Below, in pieces: positions 35,929-48,420 of a DNA stretch of 64,000 nt. The DNA comes from Spiribacter sp. 1M189. Lineage in GTDB: Bacteria > Pseudomonadota > Gammaproteobacteria > Nitrococcales > Nitrococcaceae. A program made the position numbers and the translations under genes. Under the pieces are notes generated by a model. The model was not told the DNA's origin, made no database searches, and worked only from the letters and a program-made list of their open reading frames with translations. Position 1 is the first letter of the stretch; every line of letters begins with the position of its first letter. Location of the stretch: positions 1,798,001-1,862,000 of the forward strand of contig NZ_JBAKFF010000001.1 in assembly GCF_040838345.1 (NCBI RefSeq). Direction: 5' to 3'.

Positions 35929-37422
35929 TCATTTGCCGGTGGTCAGCGTCCGGCGTACCGCATCATGCCATCCCTCGACGACATGCTCGCGCGTGCCGCG
36001 CGAGATGGCCGGCTCGAAGCGGCGATTGAGCGCCCACTGCGATTCCAGACTCTCCAGCGAATCGTACAGCCCGTGCTGCAGCCCCGCCAGGTAGGCGGCG
36101 CCCAGCGCGGTGGTTTCGATAATCTCCGGGCGCTCGACGGCAAGCCCGGTCAGGTCGGCCAGTCGCTGCAGCAGCCAGTTGTTGGCGACCATGCCGCCAT
36201 CCACGCGCAGGGTTTCCTGGGCCGTACCCGAGTCGCCGGCCATGGCCTCGAGCAGATCACCCGTCTGCAGACAGACCGAATCCAGCGCGGCATGAACGAA
36301 CTCGGCCACACCGGTGTTGCGGTTGAGTCCGAAAATGGCCCCGCGCGCGTTCGGATCCCACCAGGGCGCGCCCAGGCCCGTGAAGGCCGGGACCAGATAG
36401 AGCCCCTCTGCTTCGGCATCATTGGCGAGCCCCTCGCTCTGCGAGGCATGGGCGATGATACCCAGCTCGTCGCGCAGCCACTGAATGGCGGCACCAGCGA
36501 TAAAGATGGCGCCCTCAAGGGCATAGGTCGGCTGGCCATTGATTCGATAGGCCGTCGTGGTGAGCAGCCGGTTGCTGGATGGCACCGCCTGGTCGCCGGT
36601 GTTCATCAATGCGAAGCAGCCCGTGCCGTAGGTGCTCTTGATCATGCCCGGCTGGAAGCAGCACTGACCGACCACGGCGGCGTGCTGATCGCCGGCAATG
36701 CCCTCGATCGGCAGTTCCGCGCCCAGAACCTCCGGATCGGTCACCCCGAAGTCGGCGGCACTGTCGAGCACCTCGGGCAGGATGGCCGCGGGAATGTCGA
36801 ACAGCGCCAGAAGGTCCTCGTCCCAGGCCTGACGGTGGATGTCGAAGAGTAGCGTGCGGCTGGCGTTGGTGGCGTCCGTGGCATGGCTGCGGCCGCCGGT
36901 CAGTTTCCACAGCAGCCAGGTGTCCACGGTGCCGAAAGCGAGTTCGCCGTTTCGGGCGCGTTCCCGGGCGCCCTTCACGTTTTCCAGGATCCAGGCGATC
37001 TTGGTGGCGGCGAAGTACGGGTCGAGCAGCAGGCCGGTGCGCTCGGCCACCAGTGGCTCGTGGCCGGCCGACTTCAGAGCGGCACAGCGCTCGGCGGTGC
37101 GGCGATCCTGCCAGACAATGGCGTTGTGGATGGGCTCACCCGTGGCGCGATCCCACAGGATGGTGGTTTCCCGCTGGTTGGTGATGCCGATGGTGCGGGC
37201 ATGAACGCCGGCGGCCTTTGCGGCTTTCAGGGCGCGGCGGCAGGTGTCGACGGTGGTGTTCAACAAATCCTGAGGATCATGCTCCACCCAGCCGCTGTGC
37301 GGATAATACTGGGTGAATTCCTCCTGGGCCGTGGCAATGATTCGACCTTCGAGGTTGAAGACAATCGCCCGTGAACTGGTCGTGCCCTGATCGATGGCCA
37401 GGATGCCGCTGTTTTCAGCCAT
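35929..37422 (-). CDS. glpK: glycerol kinase
   Basis: Phosphorylates glycerol to glycerol-3-phosphate. The 497-aa protein (E. coli about 502) has [36 protein letters not shown], the ADP-binding [16 protein letters not shown] and KSTYGTGCF, and [15 protein letters not shown]. The ATG at 37422 has GGAGGAGGG upstream; earlier in-frame ATGs lack one. It is divergent from glpR, separate from the plus-strand glpD operon. Confidence 0.97.
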
Positions 37423-37532
37423 TCCGCTGCCCTCCTCCATAATATTTGCGCCGTTTTTCCAAAACGGTATGATCGAATCCGAGCGAAAAATGTCAAGCTT
37501 GATGTTCACAAGCGAAAACAAGGGGGAGAGCG
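37423..37532. promoter_or_regulatory. glpK-glpR divergent control region
   Basis: On the minus strand TTGACA (37496-37491) is a consensus -35 for glpK. A hairpin CCGTTTT/AAAACGG (37451-37467) lies in the glpK leader. ATGTTCACAAGCGAAAACA (37502-37520) partly matches the enteric GlpR operator, and AGCGAAAA occurs twice in direct orientation (37482-37489 and 37511-37518). GlpR control of both genes is inferred. Confidence 0.55.
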
Positions 37533-38321
37533 GTGATCGCGGTAGACGACGATGCCGTGGAGCTGAATCGCCGGCAACAGGCGATGCTCGGCCTGGTCCA
37601 GGAGCAGGGCTTCGTTTCCGTTGAGGAGCTCGCGCAGCATTTCTCCGTGACCTCGCAGACCATCCGGCGGGATATCAATTCCCTATGCGGGGCAGGCCTG
37701 CTACGCCGGTATCATGGTGGGGCCGGGCTGCCCTCCAGTGTCGAGAACGTGGCCTATCAGGCGCGTCAGATCCTCTATCCCGAGGCCAAGGAACGGATCG
37801 GCGCAGCGATCGCGGCGCGCATCCCCAATCAGGCATCCCTCTACATTACCCTCGGGACCACCACCGAGGCCGTGGCGGCGGCGCTGCGCGAGCACCGCGG
37901 GCTGCGGGTGATCACCAATAATCTCAATGTCGCCAGCATCCTCGCGGACAACCCGGGTTGCGAGGTCATTGTTGCCGGTGGTGTCGTACGTCACCGCGAT
38001 CGTGGAATCACCGGTGAGGCAACCATTGATTTCATGAATCAGTTCAAGGTTGATTATGCGGTGATGGGAATCTCCGGCATCGAGGCGGATGGAACGCTGC
38101 TGGATTTCGACTACCGCGAGGTGCGGGTGCTCCAGGTGATCATGGGCAACGCCCGCTCCATCCTGCTCGGCGCCGACCACAGCAAGTTCGGGCGCAACGC
38201 GTTGGTCCGGGTGGGTGATCTCAGCCGCATTACCGAGCTCTACACCGATGCCGAGCCACCCGCCTCCATCCGTCGGATCCTGTCCGAGAACGGCGGCCGG
38301 CTGGTTGTGACCGATCCCTGA
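37533..38321 (+). CDS. glpR: glycerol-3-phosphate regulon repressor, DeoR family
   Basis: A 262-aa DeoR-type repressor: winged helix with [20 protein letters not shown] and [20 protein letters not shown] (14-58), then the sugar-phosphate-sensing domain with [13 protein letters not shown] and [19 protein letters not shown]. Glycerol-3-phosphate is the expected inducer. The GTG start follows AGGGGGAGAG. It lies between glpK (divergent) and glpD (downstream), both with GlpR-like operator sequences. Confidence 0.93.
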
Positions 38322-38431: not shown

Positions 38432-39970
38432 GTGTCTTCCGAGGGTCAGCAGACGGACTTCTACGATGTCGTCGTCGTCGGTGGCGGCATTAACGGTGCG
38501 GGCATCGCCCGCGACGCGGCGGGCCGCGGTCTCCGGGTCCTGCTCGTCGAGCAGGGCGACCTCGCCAACTACACCTCCTCCGCCAGTACCAAGCTGGTGC
38601 ACGGCGGACTTCGCTACCTCGAGTACTACGAATTCCGGCTCGTTCAGAAAGCACTGAAAGAGCGCGAAGTGCTCATGGGTATCGCCCCTCATATCATCTG
38701 GCCGCTTCGTTTCGTCATGCCGCATGTCAAGGAGCTGCGGCCGGCCTGGATGATCCGCATGGGCCTGTTCCTCTACGACCACCTCGGCGGCCGCAAGAAG
38801 TTGCCGGGGTCGAAGGGCATCAACCTGCAGACACACTTTGCCGGCGCGCCCCTCAAGGACAGCCTCCGCAAGGGCTTCATCTACTCCGACTGCTGGGTTC
38901 AGGATTCGCGCCTGGTGGTGCTCAACTGCATGGACGTCGAAGCGCGTGACGGCAAGGTGCTTCCACGCACCCGCTGCACGGGGGCCGAGCGCAGCGGTGA
39001 CGAATGGCGCGTGCAACTCACCGACACGATCAGCGGTGAAGTGCACGATGTTCGTTCTCGTTCGATTGTGAACGCCGCGGGCCCCTGGGTCGCCAAATTC
39101 CTTGGCAACGCCATGCACCAGGAGGATGAGAAGGCCGAGAAGGACGTCCATCTGGTCAAGGGCAGCCACATCGTCGTGCCGAAGATGTTCGACCATGAGG
39201 ACTCCTACCTCTTCCAGAACGACGACGGTCGGGTGATCTTCGCCATCCCCTACGAGCAGCATTTCACGCTCATCGGTACCACCGACGTGGCCTATGAAGG
39301 CAACCCGGCGGAGGCGACGGCCAGCGACGACGAGATTCAGTATCTATGCGATGCCGTGAATCGCTACTTCAAGCATGGCATCGCCCCGAAGGACGTGGTC
39401 TGGACATACTCCGGCGTCCGCGCCCTTTATGACGAGTCGGAAGAGGAAGACGTATCGGCCGTGAGCCGTGACTACAGCCTCGAGCTCGACGACAAGGCCG
39501 CCCCGCTCCTCTCGGTATTCGGGGGCAAGATCACCACCTACCGCACGCTGGCGCGTCAGGCGGTCGACCGCATTGCGCCCTTGCTGAATGCCAGCATCAC
39601 CGACTGGACGGGTCGTTCGGCGCTGCCGGGCGGCGACATTCCCGATGGTGACTTCGACGCCTATCTCGCCGCGCTGCGCAAGTCTCGGCCCTGGCTGCCC
39701 GAGGATATGGCGTGGCGCCTCGCCCGCAACTACGGCACCTGCGTTGAGGAAATGCTGGGCGATGCGGCTTCGCTGGAAGATCTCGGTGAGCATTTCGGCG
39801 CCGATCTCTACGAAGCCGAGCTGCGCTACCTGGCCGAGCGGGAGTGGGCAATGACCTGCGAGGACGCCATCTGGCGTCGCACCAAGCTCGGGTTGATGCT
39901 TGATGCCTCGCAGCAGGAGCGGGTGGACGCCTGGTTCACCGGCCAGAACAAGAAGAGGGCAACTGCGTAA
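38432..39970 (+). CDS. glpD: aerobic glycerol-3-phosphate dehydrogenase
   Basis: A 512-aa FAD enzyme of the inner membrane oxidising glycerol-3-phosphate to DHAP with electron transfer to quinone. It has the FAD-binding VVVGGGINGAGIARDAAGRG (12-31), LVHGGLRYLEYYEFRLV, IFAIPYEQHFTLIGTTD and the C-terminal dehydrogenase domain. The GTG start at 38432 follows GGAGGAGAGG. The stop overlaps the start of the first transporter ATPase gene, putting oxidation and uptake in one operon. Confidence 0.97.
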   Translation: MSSEGQQTDFYDVVVVGGGINGAGIARDAAGRGLRVLLVEQGDLANYTSSASTKLVHGGLRYLEYYEFRLVQKALKEREVLMGIAPHIIWPLRFVMPHVKELRPAWMIRMGLFLYDHLGGRKKLPGSKGINLQTHFAGAPLKDSLRKGFIYSDCWVQDSRLVVLNCMDVEARDGKVLPRTRCTGAERSGDEWRVQLTDTISGEVHDVRSRSIVNAAGPWVAKFLGNAMHQEDEKAEKDVHLVKGSHIVVPKMFDHEDSYLFQNDDGRVIFAIPYEQHFTLIGTTDVAYEGNPAEATASDDEIQYLCDAVNRYFKHGIAPKDVVWTYSGVRALYDESEEEDVSAVSRDYSLELDDKAAPLLSVFGGKITTYRTLARQAVDRIAPLLNASITDWTGRSALPGGDIPDGDFDAYLAALRKSRPWLPEDMAWRLARNYGTCVEEMLGDAASLEDLGEHFGADLYEAELRYLAEREWAMTCEDAIWRRTKLGLMLDASQQERVDAWFTGQNKKRATA

Positions 39971-41043
39971 TGAGTCTGATCCTTGAGGGGGTCGACCGCA
40001 CCGTCGGTGGTGAGGTTTACCTGAAAGATATCAACCTCACCTTCGAGCGCGGTGAGTTCAATGTGCTGCTGGGCCTGACCGAGGCCGGCAAGACCACCAT
40101 GATGCGGATCATGGCGGGCCTGGAGCCGCCGAACCGCGGCCGTGTGGTCGAGGATGGTCAGGATGTGACCCGCGTCCCGGTCCGTAAGCGGTCGGTGGGC
40201 ATGGTCTACCAGCAGTTCATCAACTACCCGTCGCTGAGCGTCTACGACAACATTGCTTCGCCGCTCAAGCTGGCGGGGATCTCCAAGTCGGAGATCGATC
40301 GCCTGGTGCGCACCGAAGCCGAGCGTCTGGGCATTGACCACCTGATCGATCGCCTGCCGTCGGAACTCTCCGGGGGGCAGCAGCAGCGTTGTGCCATGGC
40401 CCGGGCGCTGGTCCGCGACGCCAAGCTGGTGCTGCTGGACGAGCCCCTGGTCAACCTGGACTACAAGCTGCGTGAAGGGCTGCGCTCGGAGCTCCGCTCC
40501 TTGTTCGCCGATCGCGACACGGTGGTGGTCTATGCCACCACCGAGCCCGAAGAGGCCCTCGTGCTGGGCGGCAAGACGACGGTATTGCACGAAGGCCGTG
40601 TCATCCAGAACGGCGTGACGGCCCAGTGCTATCGCCACCCGGCCAGTACCACGGTGACCCAGGTGTTTGCCGACCCGCCCATGAATCTCATGCCGGTGAC
40701 GGTGGGTGACGGCCAGGTCAAGGCTGAAGGGTTGCTGAGCGCGCCGCTGCCGGCGCACATGAAGGACCTGGCCCCTGGGCATTACACACTCGGCGTCCGA
40801 CCGCATCACCTGTTCGTGAATGCCGGGGAGGGGCGTGTTGGCCTTCATGGCACCGTCGAGGTCGCCGAAATCGCCGGTTCCGTGACGTACGTGCACCTCG
40901 AAGTGAATGGCCGGGACTGGGTGATCGAGGAGCGTGGCGTCCATCAGGTGCACCCCGGCGAGCGCTTCGAGCTCTTCATGGATTTGAACCGGGCATACGC
41001 CTTCGACAGCGCGGACCAGCTGGCGGCCGCGCCGGATAGTTAA
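39970..41043 (+). CDS. glpS: glycerol ABC importer ATPase GlpS (degenerate switch His)
   Basis: A 357-aa CUT1/MalK-like ATPase. Walker A GLTEAGKT (35-42) is intact though unusual, signature LSGGQQQR (133-140) is canonical and Walker B LVLLDEP (153-159) is present. The switch-loop His is replaced: VVYATTEPEEAL has Thr191 where MalK-type proteins have TH. The C-terminal regulatory OB-like domain is present. It overlaps glpD by one base and lies 13 bp before the second ATPase gene, as in GlpSTPQV systems of other proteobacteria. Confidence 0.9.
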   Translation: MSLILEGVDRTVGGEVYLKDINLTFERGEFNVLLGLTEAGKTTMMRIMAGLEPPNRGRVVEDGQDVTRVPVRKRSVGMVYQQFINYPSLSVYDNIASPLKLAGISKSEIDRLVRTEAERLGIDHLIDRLPSELSGGQQQRCAMARALVRDAKLVLLDEPLVNLDYKLREGLRSELRSLFADRDTVVVYATTEPEEALVLGGKTTVLHEGRVIQNGVTAQCYRHPASTTVTQVFADPPMNLMPVTVGDGQVKAEGLLSAPLPAHMKDLAPGHYTLGVRPHHLFVNAGEGRVGLHGTVEVAEIAGSVTYVHLEVNGRDWVIEERGVHQVHPGERFELFMDLNRAYAFDSADQLAAAPDS

Positions 41044-41056
41044 TGCGGATGACAAA

Positions 41057-42127
41057 ATGGCGCGAATAGAACTCAACAATCTGGCGCATCAGTACGCCCC
41101 CGGCGGCGACTACGCCTTGCAGCCCATGCAGCATGTCTGGGAGGACGGGGGCGCCTATGCACTCCTGGGACCGTCGGGCTGCGGCAAGACCACGCTGCTG
41201 AACATCATCTCGGGGCTGGTGCAGCCTTCGGAGGGACGGGTGATGTTTGGTGATCTTGATGTCACCACACTGGCCCCCGAGCAGCGCAACATCGGGCAGG
41301 TTTTCCAGTTCCCGGTCATCTACGACACCATGAGCGTGTTCGACAATCTCGCCTTCCCGCTGCGTAACCGCAAGCATGGTGAGGACTATGTCGAGCGTCG
41401 GGTGAAGCACATCGCGGGCATGCTCGGCCTTGAAGACGTCCTCAAGCGGCGTGCCAACAACCTCACCGCCGATGCCAAACAGAAGATCTCGCTGGGCCGC
41501 GGGCTGGTCCGCGAGGACGTGGCGGCGGTGCTGTTCGATGAACCGCTCACGGTGATCGATCCGCATCTGAAATGGCAGCTGCGGCGCAAGCTTCGTGAGG
41601 TGCATGAGCAGCTCAACCTCACGCTGGTCTATGTCACGCATGACCAGACCGAGGCGCTGACATTCGCTGACAAGGTGGTGGTCATGCTGGCTGGCCAGGT
41701 TCTCCAGGTCGGTACGCCCCAGGCACTGTTCGAGCGGCCGGAACACACCTTCGTGGGCTACTTCATCGGCAGCCCCGGCATGAACTTCTTCGACTGCCAG
41801 GTCGACGGCAGCCATGCCGTCGTAGACGGCGAGCATATCCCGGTGGATCCCACCATGGCGGAGGCCGCGCGCAACGCGGGTGGTCTGCTGCAGCTCGGTA
41901 TCCGTCCGGGGTTGATCCGGCCGGCCGGAGCGGATGAGTCGGCGCTCACCGTCAAGGTGGACAAGGTTGAGGATCTGGGCGACTACGAACTGGTGACCGG
42001 CCACCTCGGCCAGCATCAGGTTCATGTGCGCCTGGAGGAGTCCGAGAAGATTGGCAGTGACGGTCTGCGGGTGGTTTTCCCCACCGAGAACGCACTGCTG
42101 TACGCCGACGACAAGCTGGTCGGCTAG
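41057..42127 (+). CDS. glpT: glycerol ABC importer ATPase GlpT (degenerate signature motif)
   Basis: A 356-aa ATPase partner of GlpS; it is not the antiporter also named GlpT in enterics. Walker A GPSGCGKTT (38-46), Walker B AVLFDEP (157-163) and switch His195 (VYVTHDQTEAL) are canonical. The signature is lost: LTADAKQKISLGRGL (136-150) stands where LSGGQ is expected. The degenerate features are complementary to those of GlpS, implying a heterodimer with one consensus and one degenerate ATP site. Confidence 0.9.
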   Translation: MARIELNNLAHQYAPGGDYALQPMQHVWEDGGAYALLGPSGCGKTTLLNIISGLVQPSEGRVMFGDLDVTTLAPEQRNIGQVFQFPVIYDTMSVFDNLAFPLRNRKHGEDYVERRVKHIAGMLGLEDVLKRRANNLTADAKQKISLGRGLVREDVAAVLFDEPLTVIDPHLKWQLRRKLREVHEQLNLTLVYVTHDQTEALTFADKVVVMLAGQVLQVGTPQALFERPEHTFVGYFIGSPGMNFFDCQVDGSHAVVDGEHIPVDPTMAEAARNAGGLLQLGIRPGLIRPAGADESALTVKVDKVEDLGDYELVTGHLGQHQVHVRLEESEKIGSDGLRVVFPTENALLYADDKLVG

Positions 42128-42138
42128 GGGGAGAGAAC

Positions 42139-43005
42139 GTGGAAAAGCGCGAATATCAATGGGCGTGGCTGATGGTGCTGCCAGTGGTGCTGGTGGTGGC
42201 CTTCAGCGCCATCATGCCGCTGATGACCGTGGTCAACTACTCGATGCAGGACATCTTCGGTCCTGACTCCCGTTTCTTCGTGGGCACTGAGTGGTTCAAG
42301 GAGGTGCTTCGGGATCCGGCGCTGCATGGCGCGCTGATCCGCCAGATCATCTTCTCCGCCGCGGTGCTCCTCATCCAGATCCCGCTGGGCATCGGTCTTG
42401 CGCTGTGTCTGCCCAAGAAGGGCCCATGGGTGTCCGTCTCGCTGGTGCTTCTGGCGCTGCCGCTGCTGGTGCCGTGGAACGTGGTCGGCACGATCTGGCA
42501 GGTCTTTGCCCGCCCGGATGTAGGGCTCGCCGGCGTATTCCTGAATTCTATCGGCCTGGACTACAACTACACCGGGGACTCGGTGGATGCCTGGGTCACC
42601 GTGCTCGTCATGGACGTCTGGCACTGGACCTCGCTGGTGATCCTGCTCTGCTACGCCGGACTCCAGGCGATTCCCGACGCTTTCTACCAGGCGGCGCGCA
42701 TTGACGGGGCGTCGCGCTGGGCCGTGTTCCGGTACATCGAGCTGCCCAAGCTCAAGGGTGTGCTGCTGATCGCCATTCTCCTGCGCTTCATCTTCAGCTT
42801 CCGGATCTACGCCGAGCCGTTCGTGCTCACCGGCGGTGGTCCGGGCAACGCGACCACATTCCTGAGTCAGCGGCTCACCACCATGGCTGTGGGGCAGTTC
42901 GATCTGGGACCGGCGGCAGCATTCTCGCTGATCTACTTCCTGATCATCCTGCTGTTCAGCTACGTGTTCTATCTGACCATTCTCAATATGGACCGGGAGG
43001 GTTAA
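42139..43005 (+). CDS. glpP: glycerol ABC importer permease GlpP
   Basis: A 288-aa binding-protein-dependent permease of the MalF type with six hydrophobic segments (first at about 9-30) and the EAA coupling loop AARIDGASRWAVFRYIELPK. The GTG start at 42139 follows GGGGGAGAG. The start is 12 bp after the second ATPase gene. Confidence 0.92.
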   Translation: MEKREYQWAWLMVLPVVLVVAFSAIMPLMTVVNYSMQDIFGPDSRFFVGTEWFKEVLRDPALHGALIRQIIFSAAVLLIQIPLGIGLALCLPKKGPWVSVSLVLLALPLLVPWNVVGTIWQVFARPDVGLAGVFLNSIGLDYNYTGDSVDAWVTVLVMDVWHWTSLVILLCYAGLQAIPDAFYQAARIDGASRWAVFRYIELPKLKGVLLIAILLRFIFSFRIYAEPFVLTGGGPGNATTFLSQRLTTMAVGQFDLGPAAAFSLIYFLIILLFSYVFYLTILNMDREG

Positions 43006-43008
43006 GCC

Positions 43009-43812
43009 GTGGGTTCCAAGCGACGTTACATCTTCCTTGGCCTGTGGCTGGTCTTCCTGATGCTGCCGATCTACTGGCTCATCATGATGTCGCTGAAGAC
43101 CAACCAGGAGATCCTCTCGACGTTCACGCTGTGGCCGAACGATCTGACGGTGGCCAACTACGTGAAGATCTTCACCGATCCCACGTGGTACCCGGGCTAC
43201 ATCAACTCCACGCTCTATGTACTGATGAACGTGGTGATCTCGCTGACGGTGGCACTGCCGGCGGCCTATGCCTTCTCCCGGTACAACTTCCTGGGTGACA
43301 AGCATCTGTTCTTCTGGCTGCTGACCAACATCATGGCGCCGCCGGCGGTGTTCCTGCTGCCGTTCTTCGAGCTCTACCAGAGCGTCGGCCTGTACGACAC
43401 GCACATCGCCGTGGCGCTGGCGCATACGCTGTTCACCGTGCCGCTCGCGGTGTGGATCCTCGAGGGGTTCATGTCCGGCGTGCCGAAGGAGATCGACGAG
43501 ACGGCCTACCTCGACGGGTATTCCTGGCCGCGGTTCTTCATCACGATCTTCCTGCCCCTGATCCGCTCCGGTGTGGGCGTGACGGCGTTCTTCTGCTTCA
43601 TGTTCTCGTGGGTGGAACTGCTCATCGCCCGGACCATCACCTCCACCGAGGCCAAGCCCATTGCCGTCACGATGACGCGGACCGTGGGGGCCTCCGGCCT
43701 TGACTGGGGTCTGCTCGCCACCGCCGGCGTGCTGACGCTGGTGCCGGGGGCGCTGGTGATCTGGTTCGTGCGCAAGCACATCGCCCGCGGGTTCGCGCTG
43801 GGCCGCGTGTGA
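43009..43812 (+). CDS. glpQ: glycerol ABC importer permease GlpQ
   Basis: A 267-aa MalG-type permease with six hydrophobic segments and EAA loop DETAYLDGYSWPRFFITIFL. A GTG start lies 3 bp after the glpP stop. With GlpP it forms the membrane channel. The name follows the glycerol transporter operon nomenclature and is not the periplasmic phosphodiesterase GlpQ. Confidence 0.92.
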   Translation: MGSKRRYIFLGLWLVFLMLPIYWLIMMSLKTNQEILSTFTLWPNDLTVANYVKIFTDPTWYPGYINSTLYVLMNVVISLTVALPAAYAFSRYNFLGDKHLFFWLLTNIMAPPAVFLLPFFELYQSVGLYDTHIAVALAHTLFTVPLAVWILEGFMSGVPKEIDETAYLDGYSWPRFFITIFLPLIRSGVGVTAFFCFMFSWVELLIARTITSTEAKPIAVTMTRTVGASGLDWGLLATAGVLTLVPGALVIWFVRKHIARGFALGRV

Positions 43813-43828
43813 TCGGAGTAAAGACACG

Positions 43829-44125
43829 ATGAATCAAGAAGCTGGATTTAACCTCGCGTGGATGGCCTGGACGCAGCCGGTCGCGATCTTCTTCGCCTCG
43901 ATCGCGGTCATGCTGGTGGTCTTTGGTGTGCTGCAGTTCGTCATCCCGACCTACGAGCGGAAGGGCTTCCTGCCGGTGCCGACCACGCGCGGCGACCGGC
44001 TGTTCATGAGCCTGCTGGGAGCGGCTTATATCCATCTCATCTGGCTGGCGTTTACGGACGCGAGTCTTTTGATTGCCTCAGGCATTTCCATCGTCTATGC
44101 GGTGGTGATGCTGCGTTGGGGCTGA
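43829..44125 (+). CDS. DUF2160 small membrane protein of glycerol ABC operon
   Basis: A 98-aa protein with three hydrophobic segments (about 11-34, 53-72, 78-96), separated by IPTYERKGFLPVPTTRGDR. This DUF2160 family is found between permeases and the binding protein of glycerol ABC operons; its role is not established. It may assist assembly or stability of the transporter. Confidence 0.85.
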   Translation: MNQEAGFNLAWMAWTQPVAIFFASIAVMLVVFGVLQFVIPTYERKGFLPVPTTRGDRLFMSLLGAAYIHLIWLAFTDASLLIASGISIVYAVVMLRWG

Positions 44126-44241: not shown

Positions 44242-45987
44242 ATGAAACAGCATAAAAGCGCCATGCAGCCATGGACTGCGCTCGCTGTAGCCGCTGCGCT
44301 GGGTGTGGGAGGTCTGGGCAGTGTCCAGGCCGCCACTGATGCGCAGATGGCCGTCGCCGAGCAGTATCTCGACGAGTTCCAGCCGTCGACGCTGACCCGT
44401 GAAGAGCAGCTCGAGCAGCTCGAGTGGTTCATCGACGCGGCCGAAGAGTTCCGCGGCATGGATGTCTCGGTGGTCTCCGAGACCATCCCGACCCACGAGT
44501 ACGAGGCCAGTGTGCTGGCCCCGGCCTTCTCCGAGATCACGGGGATCAACCTGACCCACGATCTCATCGGCGAGGGCGACGTCATCGAGGCCCTGCAGAC
44601 CGAGATGCAGTCGGGTGAGAGCATCTACGACGGCTACGTCAACGATGCCGATCTGATCGGTACGCATTATCGCTACGGCCAGGTCATTCCGTTGTCCGAT
44701 TACATGGACGGTGACGGCGCCGACGTGACCTCGCCCTATCTGGATCTGGACGATTTCATCGGCCTCGACGCCGTGACGGCGCCTGACGGCAAGATGTACC
44801 AGCTGCCCGATCAGCAGTTCGCCAACCTCTATTGGTTCCGCTATGACTGGTTCCAGCGCGAGGACCTGCAGAGCCAGTTCGAGGACATCTACGGCTACGA
44901 GCTCGGTGTGCCCACCAACTGGTCGGCCTACGAGGACATCGCCGAGTTCTTCACCGAGCATGTCGGTGAGCTGGACGGCCAGACCGTCTACGGCCACATG
45001 GACTATGGCAAGAAGGACCCGTCCCTCGGCTGGCGTTTCACTGACGCCTGGCTGTCCATGGCGGGTGCCGGTGACACCGGTCTGCCGAACGGTCATCCGG
45101 TCGATGAGTGGGGTATCCGTGTCGAAGACTGCCATCCGGTGGGCTCCGACGTGACCCGTGGCGGTGCCGTGAACGGCCCGGCTGCGGTCTACGCCCTGAC
45201 CAAGTACATCGACTGGCTTGACGCCTACGCCCCGCCGGAGGCTGCCGGCATGACCTTCTCCGAGGCGGGTCCCGTCCCGGCACAGGGTCATATCGCCCAG
45301 CAGATCTTCTGGTACACCGCCTTCACCGCGCCGATGGCCGCTGAGGGGACTCCGGTGGTGAACGCCGATGGCACGCCTAAGTGGCGTATGGCGCCGTCGC
45401 CTCACGGCCCGTACTGGGAAGAGGGCATGAAGGTCGGTTATCAGGACATCGGTTCCTGGACCTTCTTCGAGCATGCGGATCCGGATCGTCGCAAGGCGGC
45501 CTGGCTGTATGCGCAGTTCGTGACCTCCAAGGTCGTGTCGCTGAAGAAGCTCCACGAGGGCCTGACCCCGATCCGCCAGTCCGACATCATGTCCGAGTCG
45601 ATGACCGAGCGGGCGCCGGAGCTGGGTGGTCTCGTCGAGTTCTACCGCAGCCCCGACCGTGCCCTGTGGACGGATACCGGCACCAACGTGCCTGACTATC
45701 CGCGTCTGGCCCAGCTCTGGTGGTCGAACGTCGCGGCAGCCGTCACCGGCGAGGTGACCCCGCAGGCCGCCATGGACAACCTGGCCCAGGAGCAGGACCG
45801 CGTCATGGAGCGCCTCGAGCGTGCCGGTGTGCAGGATCGCTGCGGACCGCGCATGAACGAGGAGCGGAGTGCCGAGTACTGGTTCGACCAGCCCGGCGCA
45901 CCCAAGCCCCCGCTGGATAACGAGAAGCCGCAGGGCAAGACCGTGCCTTACGACGAGCTCGTCGCCGGCTGGCGCGCAAGCATGTAA
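44242..45987 (+). CDS. glpV: glycerol ABC importer substrate-binding protein GlpV
   Basis: A 581-aa periplasmic binding protein with a signal peptide (residues 1-31, cleavage near VQA) and the family's long extracellular-solute-binding fold. Landmarks are LYWFRYDWFQREDLQSQFED, GVPTNWSAYEDIAEFF and TVYGHMDYGKKDPSLGW. At about 580 aa it matches GlpV-type glycerol binders, far longer than the usual 400-450. It is the last gene of the operon and is followed by a strong terminator. Confidence 0.92.
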   Translation: MKQHKSAMQPWTALAVAAALGVGGLGSVQAATDAQMAVAEQYLDEFQPSTLTREEQLEQLEWFIDAAEEFRGMDVSVVSETIPTHEYEASVLAPAFSEITGINLTHDLIGEGDVIEALQTEMQSGESIYDGYVNDADLIGTHYRYGQVIPLSDYMDGDGADVTSPYLDLDDFIGLDAVTAPDGKMYQLPDQQFANLYWFRYDWFQREDLQSQFEDIYGYELGVPTNWSAYEDIAEFFTEHVGELDGQTVYGHMDYGKKDPSLGWRFTDAWLSMAGAGDTGLPNGHPVDEWGIRVEDCHPVGSDVTRGGAVNGPAAVYALTKYIDWLDAYAPPEAAGMTFSEAGPVPAQGHIAQQIFWYTAFTAPMAAEGTPVVNADGTPKWRMAPSPHGPYWEEGMKVGYQDIGSWTFFEHADPDRRKAAWLYAQFVTSKVVSLKKLHEGLTPIRQSDIMSESMTERAPELGGLVEFYRSPDRALWTDTGTNVPDYPRLAQLWWSNVAAAVTGEVTPQAAMDNLAQEQDRVMERLERAGVQDRCGPRMNEERSAEYWFDQPGAPKPPLDNEKPQGKTVPYDELVAGWRASM

Positions 45988-46131: not shown

Positions 46132-48420
46132 ATGTCCGAACGAACGTTCAATCTGGAAATAACCGGCCTCAACTGCGGTAGTTGCGTCCGGCGGGCGGAG
46201 ACCGCGCTGGGGAACGTCCGCGGAGTCAACGCGGCCAGTGTCAATCTGTCCACGGCGAAGGCGCGCCTGGAGATCGACTCCGGGCACGACCCGGCCACCG
46301 TCCTGCGTGAGGCCGCCGAGGCGCTGACAGAGGCCGGTTATCCGCCGGCGGACCCGGACGCCAGTGACGCCGGCGATGACACGCAGCAGCGGCTGCGTCA
46401 GCGGGTGGCCATTGCCGCGGCCTTCACGCTGCCGCTGGTGATCATTGCCATGGGCCGCCACATCCCCGCGGGCCATGAATGGTTCACGCAATGGCTGCCC
46501 GATCGGGGCTGGATCGCCATTGAGTGGCTCCTCGCCACCCCCGTGGTGTTCTGGGCGGGCCGCGATTTCTTCATCAAGGGCTTTTCGGAAATGCGTCACC
46601 GCGCGCCCGCCATGAGCAGTCTGGTCATGATCGGGGCCGGCGCGGCCTACGTTTACTCATTGCTGGCACTGACCCTGCCGGCGATCTTCCCCGAAGGAAC
46701 CGCGGGCAGCTATTTCGAGGCGTCCGGCGTCATCATCACCCTGATTCTGGTGGGTCGCTACCTCGAACAGATCGCCCGCGGTCGGACCTCCATGGCCATC
46801 AGACGCCTGCTGGGGATGCAGTCCCATACGGCCCGAGTGGTGCGCGATGGCGATACCGTCGAGGTGCCGATTGATGAGGTCGCCACCGGCGACACCGTCC
46901 TGGTCCGCCCGGGAGAGCGTATCCCGGTGGATGGCGAGATCAGCGAAGGACAATCGCGGGTCGACGAGTCGATGATCACCGGCGAGCCCGTACCGGTGGC
47001 CAAGAACATCGGCGACCGGCTGGTGGCCGGTACCGTCAACGGTCAGGGGTCGCTCACCGCCAGGGTCACCGAGGTGGGTTCCGAGACCGTGCTGGCCCAG
47101 ATCATCGACATGGTGGAACAGGCGCAGGCCGAGAAACCCCCCATCCAGCAGCTCGCCGATCGCATCGCCGGGGTATTCGTGCCCATCGTCCTGCTGGTGG
47201 CCCTTGCCACCGGCGCGATCTGGCTGACGATCGGGCCCGACCCGGTGCTCGCCTATGCGTTCGTGGCCACGGTCAGCGTCCTGCTCATCGCCTGCCCCTG
47301 CGCCATGGGGCTGGCTACGCCCACCGCCGTGATGGTGGCGACCGGCAAGGGCGCCGAGAACGGCATGCTGTTGCGCCGTGGCGCCGCGCTGGAATCACTG
47401 GCCCGGGCCGATACGGTCGTGCTCGACAAGACCGGCACCCTGACGCTGGGCGAGCCGCGGCTGACCGATCTGGAGGTGGCGAGCGGCAGCGAGGACGAGG
47501 CCCTGGCCCTGATGGCCGCGGTCGAATCGCACAGTGAACATCCGCTTGGCCAGGCCATCGTCGATGCGGCCCGCCGGCGCGGTCTGTCGATCCCGACGGC
47601 AACGGACTTCGACGCGGTCACCGGCTTTGGCGTCGAGGCCCGAGTCGATGGTCGGTATGTGCATATCGGCGCCGCCCACTACATGGAATGGCTCGGCGTT
47701 GATACCCGCAACGTCCAGCCCAGTGCCGAGCGGCTCATGGCGCAGGCCAGAACACCGTTGTATGCCGCCGTGGATGGCCAGTTGATCGGCGTGGCCGCCG
47801 TGGCGGATCCGCCGCGGGCCGAGAGTGCACAGGTCATCGCCGACCTGCGCGATCGGGGGCTGAAGGTGGCCATGGTCACCGGCGATCAGGCGGCCACCGC
47901 CAATGCACTCGCCGAGCGTCTGGGCATCGACGAGGTCATGGCTGGCGTTCTGCCGGATGGCAAGGCCCGCGAGGTCCAGCGCCTGCAGTCCGAAGGCCGT
48001 CGGGTGGCATTCGTGGGCGACGGCATCAACGATGCACCGGCCCTCGCCCGTGCCGACGTGGGTATCGCCATCGGCACCGGCACGGATGTGGCCATCGAAG
48101 CGGGCGATGCCGTGCTCATGCGCGCCGACCTCAACGGCCTGCTGGATGCAGTGGACCTGGCCCGACGCACCCACCGCACCATTCAGGGCAACTTCGTCTG
48201 GGCCTACGGCTATAATGTCCTTCTGATCCCGGTGGCAGCGGGGCTGCTTTACCCCTTCACGGGTTGGCTGCTCAACCCGATGGCCGCTGCGGCGGCCATG
48301 AGCCTGTCGAGCCTGTTTGTGCTCACCAACTCATTGCGTCTGCGCCGGTTCCGTCCGGCGCCGCACCGCCAGGAGGCTGACCATGGCCGAAACGACCAAC
48401 CACTGCCAGCTCGCTCTTGA
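46132..48420 (+). CDS. copA: Cu(+)-exporting P1B-1-type ATPase
   Basis: A 762-aa copper export pump. N-terminal heavy-metal domain with GLNCGSC (Cys15/Cys18), actuator TGEPVPV, CPC motif (388-390) in TM6, phosphorylation site DKTGT (432-436), [10 protein letters not shown], and TM7/8 signatures YN and MSLSS that define the Cu(+) group. A CueR-like promoter precedes it. The C-terminal coding region overlaps the next gene by 38 bp. Confidence 0.95.

Follow-up and report, generated by a model that had tools for sequence, protein, structure and literature searches.

We analysed a 64,000-nucleotide stretch of the genome of Spiribacter sp. 1M189 (bases 1798001-1862000 of contig 1; genome size 1.95 Mb; henceforth referred to as 'the window'), in which two adjoining genes, glpS and glpT, encode the MalK-type ATP-binding cassette (ABC) ATPases of a putative glycerol importer. 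Judged by their motifs, GlpS and GlpT are probably obligate partners in an importer of the MalFGK2 type, and of the two ATP sites of their heterodimer one would be catalytic and the other conserved but non-catalytic. An initial sequence-only reading of the window had proposed that GlpS keeps the LSGGQ signature but has Thr191 in place of the switch histidine, and that GlpT keeps Walker A, Glu162 and His195 but has LTADAKQ in place of the signature, resulting in one canonical and one degenerate site. Alignment of both proteins to Escherichia coli MalK, by which we set the motif columns, bore out both descriptions, including the residue numbers, and placed GlpT residues 136-142 (LTADAKQ) against MalK residues 134-140 (LSGGQRQ). 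It also revealed three same-site deviations beyond those of the earlier reading, namely Val12 and the Walker A sequence GLTEAGKTT in GlpS and the D-loop VID in GlpT, the last being mild because its aspartate is kept. Since the antiparallel dimer is the established architecture of ABC ATPases, all GlpS and GlpT deviations would lie where GlpS Walker A meets the GlpT signature, whereas the site made of GlpT Walker A, Walker B and His together with GlpS LSGGQ appears complete.

Conservation of the asymmetry in GlpS/GlpT pairs

We assembled 113 distinct GlpS/GlpT pairs from a pattern scan of named genomes (78 pairs), whole-genome searches (33) and plasmids (2). The scan used the patterns DEPLTVID and QVFQF, which favours the VID form of the D-loop; of the best 80 loci kept, L033 was omitted because GlpS is cut by a contig edge and L043 because GlpS is broken. 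The latter (L043:2837-5099, from a metagenome assembly) reads over two overlapping frames, which could be an assembly error or a true break. The whole-genome searches gave 37 loci, four of which (L124, L131, L139 and L140) were omitted because both proteins are identical to pattern-scan copies. Proteins shorter than 220 amino acids were removed before alignment. Judged by organism name, the hosts are presumably Alpha-, Beta- and Gammaproteobacteria, Desulfobacterota and Actinomycetota, the last being assigned by the record itself in the case of Nonomuraea.

For each of the two composite sites we scored nine features. On the site with GlpT in cis and GlpS in trans, all nine were present in 113/113 pairs. 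On the opposite site the switch His and the SGG of the signature were found in none of the 113 pairs, and neither was the Leu-Asp of the D-loop (a mild Leu to Ile change with Asp kept); the Walker A Gly was present in one pair and the A-loop aromatic residue in two (His counted; one row has a gap). The replacing residues are themselves conserved: the GlpS switch position (MalK 192) is Thr in 110 proteins, Ser in 2 and Ala in 1, and among 115 GlpT proteins the signature carries, in MalK numbering, Ala136 in 110, Asp137 in 114 (the second signature Gly, retained in one) and Lys139 in 113. In the divergent Nonomuraea copy the switch residue is Ala and the signature LDAGRQQ, indicating that the defect persists even with different replacing letters. 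The defects thus recur in homologous operons, as the earlier reading required, and no pair among the 113 was canonical in both subunits.

As controls we scored 48 further ATPases with MalK or UgpC as their best match, a set of mixed kinds that includes both E. coli references, the near-copies L172 and L173 and a few distant ATPases (e.g. L162, L055 and L042). SGG, the switch His, the Walker A Gly and the catalytic Glu were present in 48/48 controls and the A-loop aromatic residue in 45/48. Because His and SGG are lost from the same site in every pair, against normal motifs in every control, the asymmetry is not, at the level of sequence, a matter of chance or local mutation. Nor does it reflect sequencing error or a pseudogene, as both reading frames are open in the window and the motifs recur in 113 pairs, or bias of the search pattern, as the 33 pattern-free whole-genome pairs and the two plasmid pairs show the same result. 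We also considered a charge pairing across the degenerate site between GlpS Arg37 and GlpT Glu138 (MalK numbering), which was dropped despite a strong raw association (both residues in 38 pairs, one only in 14 and 5, neither in 56); the residues had changed independently only a few times on the tree, and an association of this strength was reached by about 3% of comparable column pairs.

Another importer in the same genome likewise has two different MalK-type ATPases; it adjoins a Dak1/Dak2 dihydroxyacetone kinase (L121:1888-9109; contig 1, about 641.9-649.1 kb), and its substrate is possibly a triose or polyol. Its ATPases carry LSGGD and LSGGE, both with the switch His. A similar dihydroxyacetone-kinase-type operon occurs in genome G044 (L122), and since all scored positions are canonical in the four ATPases of L121 and L122 (scored under the labels L103 and L104), which carry LSGGE or LSGGD, two ATPase genes alone do not entail asymmetry.

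The distribution of the two genes is consistent with an obligate pair. GlpT was found in 8 of 185 genomes of the class (at 1e-70) and GlpS in the same 8 (at 1e-60), although the GlpS match in G093 spans one TGA, and glpS and glpT adjoin in all of the best 80 pattern-scan loci, both being whole in 78. A search of 398 phylum genomes gave 88 with a GlpT match at 1e-66, comprising 85 at 7.8e-110 or better and three at only 1e-67 to 1e-69, with no score in between in the five candidates per genome that were scored; because of this gap GlpT looks like a discrete family in the sample. Motifs were read for those of the 85 genomes with a strong match that were among 30 loci. On these motifs a complete site would arise only in the GlpS-GlpT heterodimer and in neither homodimer. 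Overall, the invariance in 113 pairs, the co-occurrence of the subunits and the additional same-site deviations all fit the proposed combination of one canonical and one degenerate site.

A related, rarer asymmetric importer

The weaker GlpT match in genome G565 led to a different operon (L152:38-5989), which encodes a binding protein, two permeases, a 94-amino-acid protein and then a GlpS-like (S-like) and a GlpT-like (T-like) ATPase. This related system gave matches in 3 of the 398 phylum genomes at 1e-72, in two of which (G561 and G563) the ATPase is canonical and no other lies within the 4 kb examined; in the order around G565 it was found in 3 of 347 genomes (G565, G645 and G661, at 1e-80; the T-like match in G661 spans one TAA), and plasmids gave no match at 1e-70. 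In all three genomes of the order, Walker A, Glu and His are intact in the T-like subunit, which lacks LSGGQ and has NVE as its D-loop, whereas the S-like subunit keeps the signature as LSGGE and lacks the switch His. The catalytic Glu of the S-like subunit, on the degenerate side, is replaced by Asp in 3/3; its Walker A Gly is lost in 2/3, and, unlike in GlpS, the A-loop Tyr is kept in 3/3. Judged by these motifs the related importer has the same handedness as GlpST. At loci L152, L178 and L179, importers related to GlpST combine Glu to Asp, His to Ser and a lost signature on one composite site; genes in the neighbourhood of L178 have as their best NCBIfam hits, though below cut-off, a 2-keto-acid aldolase and the glycolate oxidase GlcD.

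Trees were built with the motif columns removed, from 18 of 113 GlpS and 18 of 115 GlpT proteins picked for diversity, and two long-branch controls were omitted from the tree that gave the support values 99/94 and 100/99.7 and the values of the approximately unbiased (AU) test. The S-like proteins grouped with GlpS (support 99/94; Shimodaira-Hasegawa-like approximate likelihood ratio test (SH-aLRT) 92 under another model) and the T-like proteins with GlpT (support 100/99.7; SH-aLRT 99 under another model), and this grouping favours one split that predates the separation of GlpST from the related system. That the S and T sides share an origin apart from the other ATPases was neither shown nor rejected (AU p = 0.492). 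We put forward as a tentative possibility that this lineage of MalFGK2-type importers, GlpST and the second system together, left symmetric two-ATP catalysis before diversifying, with one hydrolysis per substrate and a second site conserved, without catalysis, to bind nucleotide or act as a hinge.

Catalytic model and alternatives

In the model that we prefer, GlpS and GlpT would form one obligate heterodimer beneath the GlpP/GlpQ permeases. The site of GlpT Walker A, Walker B and His with GlpS LSGGQ would hydrolyse ATP, while that of GlpS Walker A and Walker B with GlpT LxADxKQ would not do so at a useful rate and may instead keep a nucleotide bound or serve as a structural hinge, so that one hydrolysis event would drive each transport cycle. 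The sequences themselves show the pattern of motifs and how well it is conserved, its restriction to a single composite site and the joint occurrence of the two genes; the antiparallel dimer, the identity of the active site and the ATP stoichiometry we infer from ABC-transporter biochemistry.

Precedents come from the exporter-type transporters TAP, TM287/288, BmrCD, Pdr5 and CFTR, in which, as in GlpST, the deviations lie in trans and are confined to one composite site, GlpST itself being a MalK-type importer with separate ATPase subunits. As described in excerpts of one account (PMC7756269), the degenerate site of yeast Pdr5 has LNVEQ, a His to Tyr change and neither the Walker A Lys nor the Glu, and swapping canonical motifs into it impairs or uncouples transport. 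To the extent of those excerpts, Pdr5 is a precedent for both the acid in the signature and the replaced switch His of GlpST.

Several observations weigh against a single catalytic site. The Walker A Lys, Q-loop Gln, Walker B Asp and catalytic Glu of the degenerate side are kept in 113/113 GlpS proteins, and with Glu158 and the other ATP-binding residues in place slow hydrolysis at this site is possible. Loss of the catalytic Glu on the degenerate side, which is common but not universal in such transporters, was found in none of them, and GlpST differs from Pdr5, as portrayed in the same excerpts, in keeping both the Walker A Lys and the Glu on both sides. Davidson and Sharma reportedly found in 1997 that mutating one of the two MalK subunits severely impairs maltose transport, so drive by a single site is not a given in the MalK class. 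Finally, a tree in which GlpST and the related system split independently, although 26.7 log-likelihood units worse, was not rejected (AU p = 0.134).

The retained residues, together with the conserved replacements, would also be expected if both sites hydrolysed ATP, with Thr191 and LxADxKQ acting as working substitutes and Glu158 doing the chemistry. We regard this as unlikely, because several elements have changed together on one site and because the related three-genome system lacks the Glu itself on its degenerate side; moreover, the signature Gly meets the gamma-phosphate, and Asp at this position is hard to square with catalysis. A degenerate site that is merely decaying under relaxed constraint, with no role of its own, would account for the variability of GlpT signature positions 135 and 138 and GlpS Walker A positions 37 and 39 (MalK numbering), but is less likely still: the cores of the altered motifs (GlpT A136, D137 and K139; GlpS T192, E193 and P194) are nearly invariant, and such conservation of motifs in their new form argues against plain decay, while the retained Lys, Gln, Asp and Glu give the look of a maintained non-catalytic site. 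That GlpS and GlpT are not partners, and act as homodimers or pair with another ATPase, is highly improbable even though the genome contains 61 ABC_tran matches and ATPases common to several importers, such as MsmX, exist, since a GlpT homodimer would lack the signature and a GlpS homodimer the switch His at either site, and since the two genes share the same 8 of 185 genomes and adjoin in the best 80 scan loci.

Gene context and relation to known transporters

The gene run in the window comprises the two adjoining ATPases, two permeases, a DUF2160 protein and a binding protein (Table 1), and is linked to glpK, glpD and glpR as identified by NCBIfam models. GlpT here is an ABC ATPase, different from the major facilitator superfamily glycerol-3-phosphate antiporter called GlpT in E. 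coli. GlpS contains the Pfam domains PF00005 (ABC_tran), PF08402 (TOBE_2) and, at cut-off with 27 bits, PF17912 (OB_MalK); GlpT contains PF00005 and PF17912. The best NCBIfam models for both are UgpC and MalK, each below cut-off (UgpC: GlpS 253.7 and GlpT 294.4 bits against 432; the MalK cut-off of 568 was likewise unreached), and identity to E. coli MalK and UgpC is 33-37%, so by sequence they are relatives of UgpC and MalK and not UgpC or MalK proper. As in MalFGK2 and UgpABCE (CUT1 type I), MalK-like ATPases with a C-terminal OB_MalK domain are combined with two permeases and a binding protein; MalK and UgpC, however, form homodimers with two canonical sites, in contrast to the one canonical and one degenerate site made by the two different ATPases of GlpST.

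Table 1. Genes and ATPase motif positions of the importer locus, in window coordinates
Feature	Position	Strand	Basis
glpK, glycerol kinase (putative start)	35929..37521	-	NCBIfam TIGR01311, 681 bits (cut-off 590.35)
glpR, DeoR-family regulator	37533..38321	+	NCBIfam PRK10906, 305.9 bits (under cut-off 331)
glpD, glycerol-3-phosphate dehydrogenase, 5' of glpS	38432..39970	+	NCBIfam PRK12266, 769.8 bits (cut-off 360)
glpS, MalK-type ABC ATPase; good signature, no switch His	39970..41043	+	Open reading frame, Pfam, motifs
GlpS Val12 at A-loop aromatic position (MalK Trp13)	40003..40005	+	MalK alignment
GlpS Walker A GLTEAGKTT, fourth residue Gly to Glu	40072..40098	+	MalK alignment, motifs
GlpS signature LSGGQQQ, residues 133-139, intact	40366..40386	+	MalK alignment, motifs
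GlpS Walker B Glu158, kept	40441..40443	+	MalK alignment, motifs
GlpS Thr191 instead of switch His (MalK His192)	40540..40542	+	MalK alignment, motifs
glpT, MalK-type ABC ATPase; intact Walker A/B and His, no signature	41057..42127	+	Open reading frame, families, motifs
GlpT Walker A GPSGCGKTT, residues 38-46, intact	41168..41194	+	MalK alignment, motifs
GlpT LTADAKQ, residues 136-142, replaces LSGGQ	41462..41482	+	MalK alignment, motifs
GlpT Walker B Glu162, kept	41540..41542	+	MalK alignment, motifs
GlpT D-loop VID instead of NLD	41552..41560	+	MalK alignment, motifs
GlpT switch His195, kept	41639..41641	+	MalK alignment, motifs
glpP, permease	42139..43005	+	Pfam BPD_transp_1
glpQ, permease	43009..43812	+	Pfam BPD_transp_1
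glpU, small membrane protein	43829..44125	+	DUF2160
glpV, solute-binding protein	44242..45987	+	Pfam SBP_bac_1

The Rhizobium leguminosarum plasmid pRL23b6 has the same annotated order as the window (glpR, glpD, two ATPases, two permeases, DUF2160 protein, binding protein), with the difference that glpK is divergent and upstream in the window but downstream within the operon in Rhizobium. Excerpts of an account of the R. leguminosarum VF39 glpSTPQUV operon (PMC7912956) describe it as an ABC glycerol importer and make no mention of asymmetric ATP sites; from this operon and the gene context we infer glycerol as the substrate in Spiribacter. A heavy-metal P-type ATPase, judged from its translation, lies 3' of glpV (window positions 46132-48420), notable only because the same excerpted account ties a related Cupriavidus glycerol importer to zinc resistance (PMC7912956). 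Among the best 80 scanned loci, some on short contigs, the glpU-type DUF2160 small membrane protein is present in 78, but glpR in 38, glpD in 35 and glpK in 27, so the link to these three genes is common and not universal. A Pseudomonas operon of the GlpSTPQUV type (L040:2826-4643) has none of the three in the stretch examined and adjoins a regulator that, judged from its translation, is of the sigma-54-dependent type; its substrate may be other than glycerol. The patchy linkage and this context suggest that the asymmetry is a trait of the transporter family, with no necessary link to glycerol.

The earlier reading had called such asymmetry notable in an importer, which holds in part. Degenerate sites have been studied extensively in exporters and are more familiar there than in importers of the MalFGK2 class. 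In the fused type II importers RbsA and NupO, one degenerate ATPase site has been reported (PMC11466899, in excerpt), although there, according to the same excerpt, two ATPase domains share one chain and the second has lost the Walker A Lys, whereas GlpST has two genes and keeps the Lys. E. coli DppDF is, like GlpST, an importer with two different ATPase subunits, but an E-to-Q mutation in either DppD or DppF alone is reported to leave similar ATPase activity, so that both Dpp sites are described as working (PMC12136057, in excerpt). Among the papers listed by our literature search, the coverage of which was limited for subscription papers, none dealt with ATP-site asymmetry in GlpST. What looks new is that an importer of the MalFGK2 type, its two ATPases encoded by separate genes, has a conserved degenerate site.

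The number of ATP molecules used per substrate, and the need for both sites, have been argued largely from artificial mutants of symmetric transporters. GlpST appears to be a naturally asymmetric member of the MalFGK2 class, and with the canonical two-ATPase importer of the same genome as a control, the question of ATP per substrate becomes directly testable. GlpST also points to separate origins of one-site drive in importers and in exporters; the altered signature carries an acid in both GlpT and Pdr5. If this importer lineage does run on one hydrolysis event per substrate, the import of a small substrate of low yield, e.g. glycerol, would cost half as much ATP.

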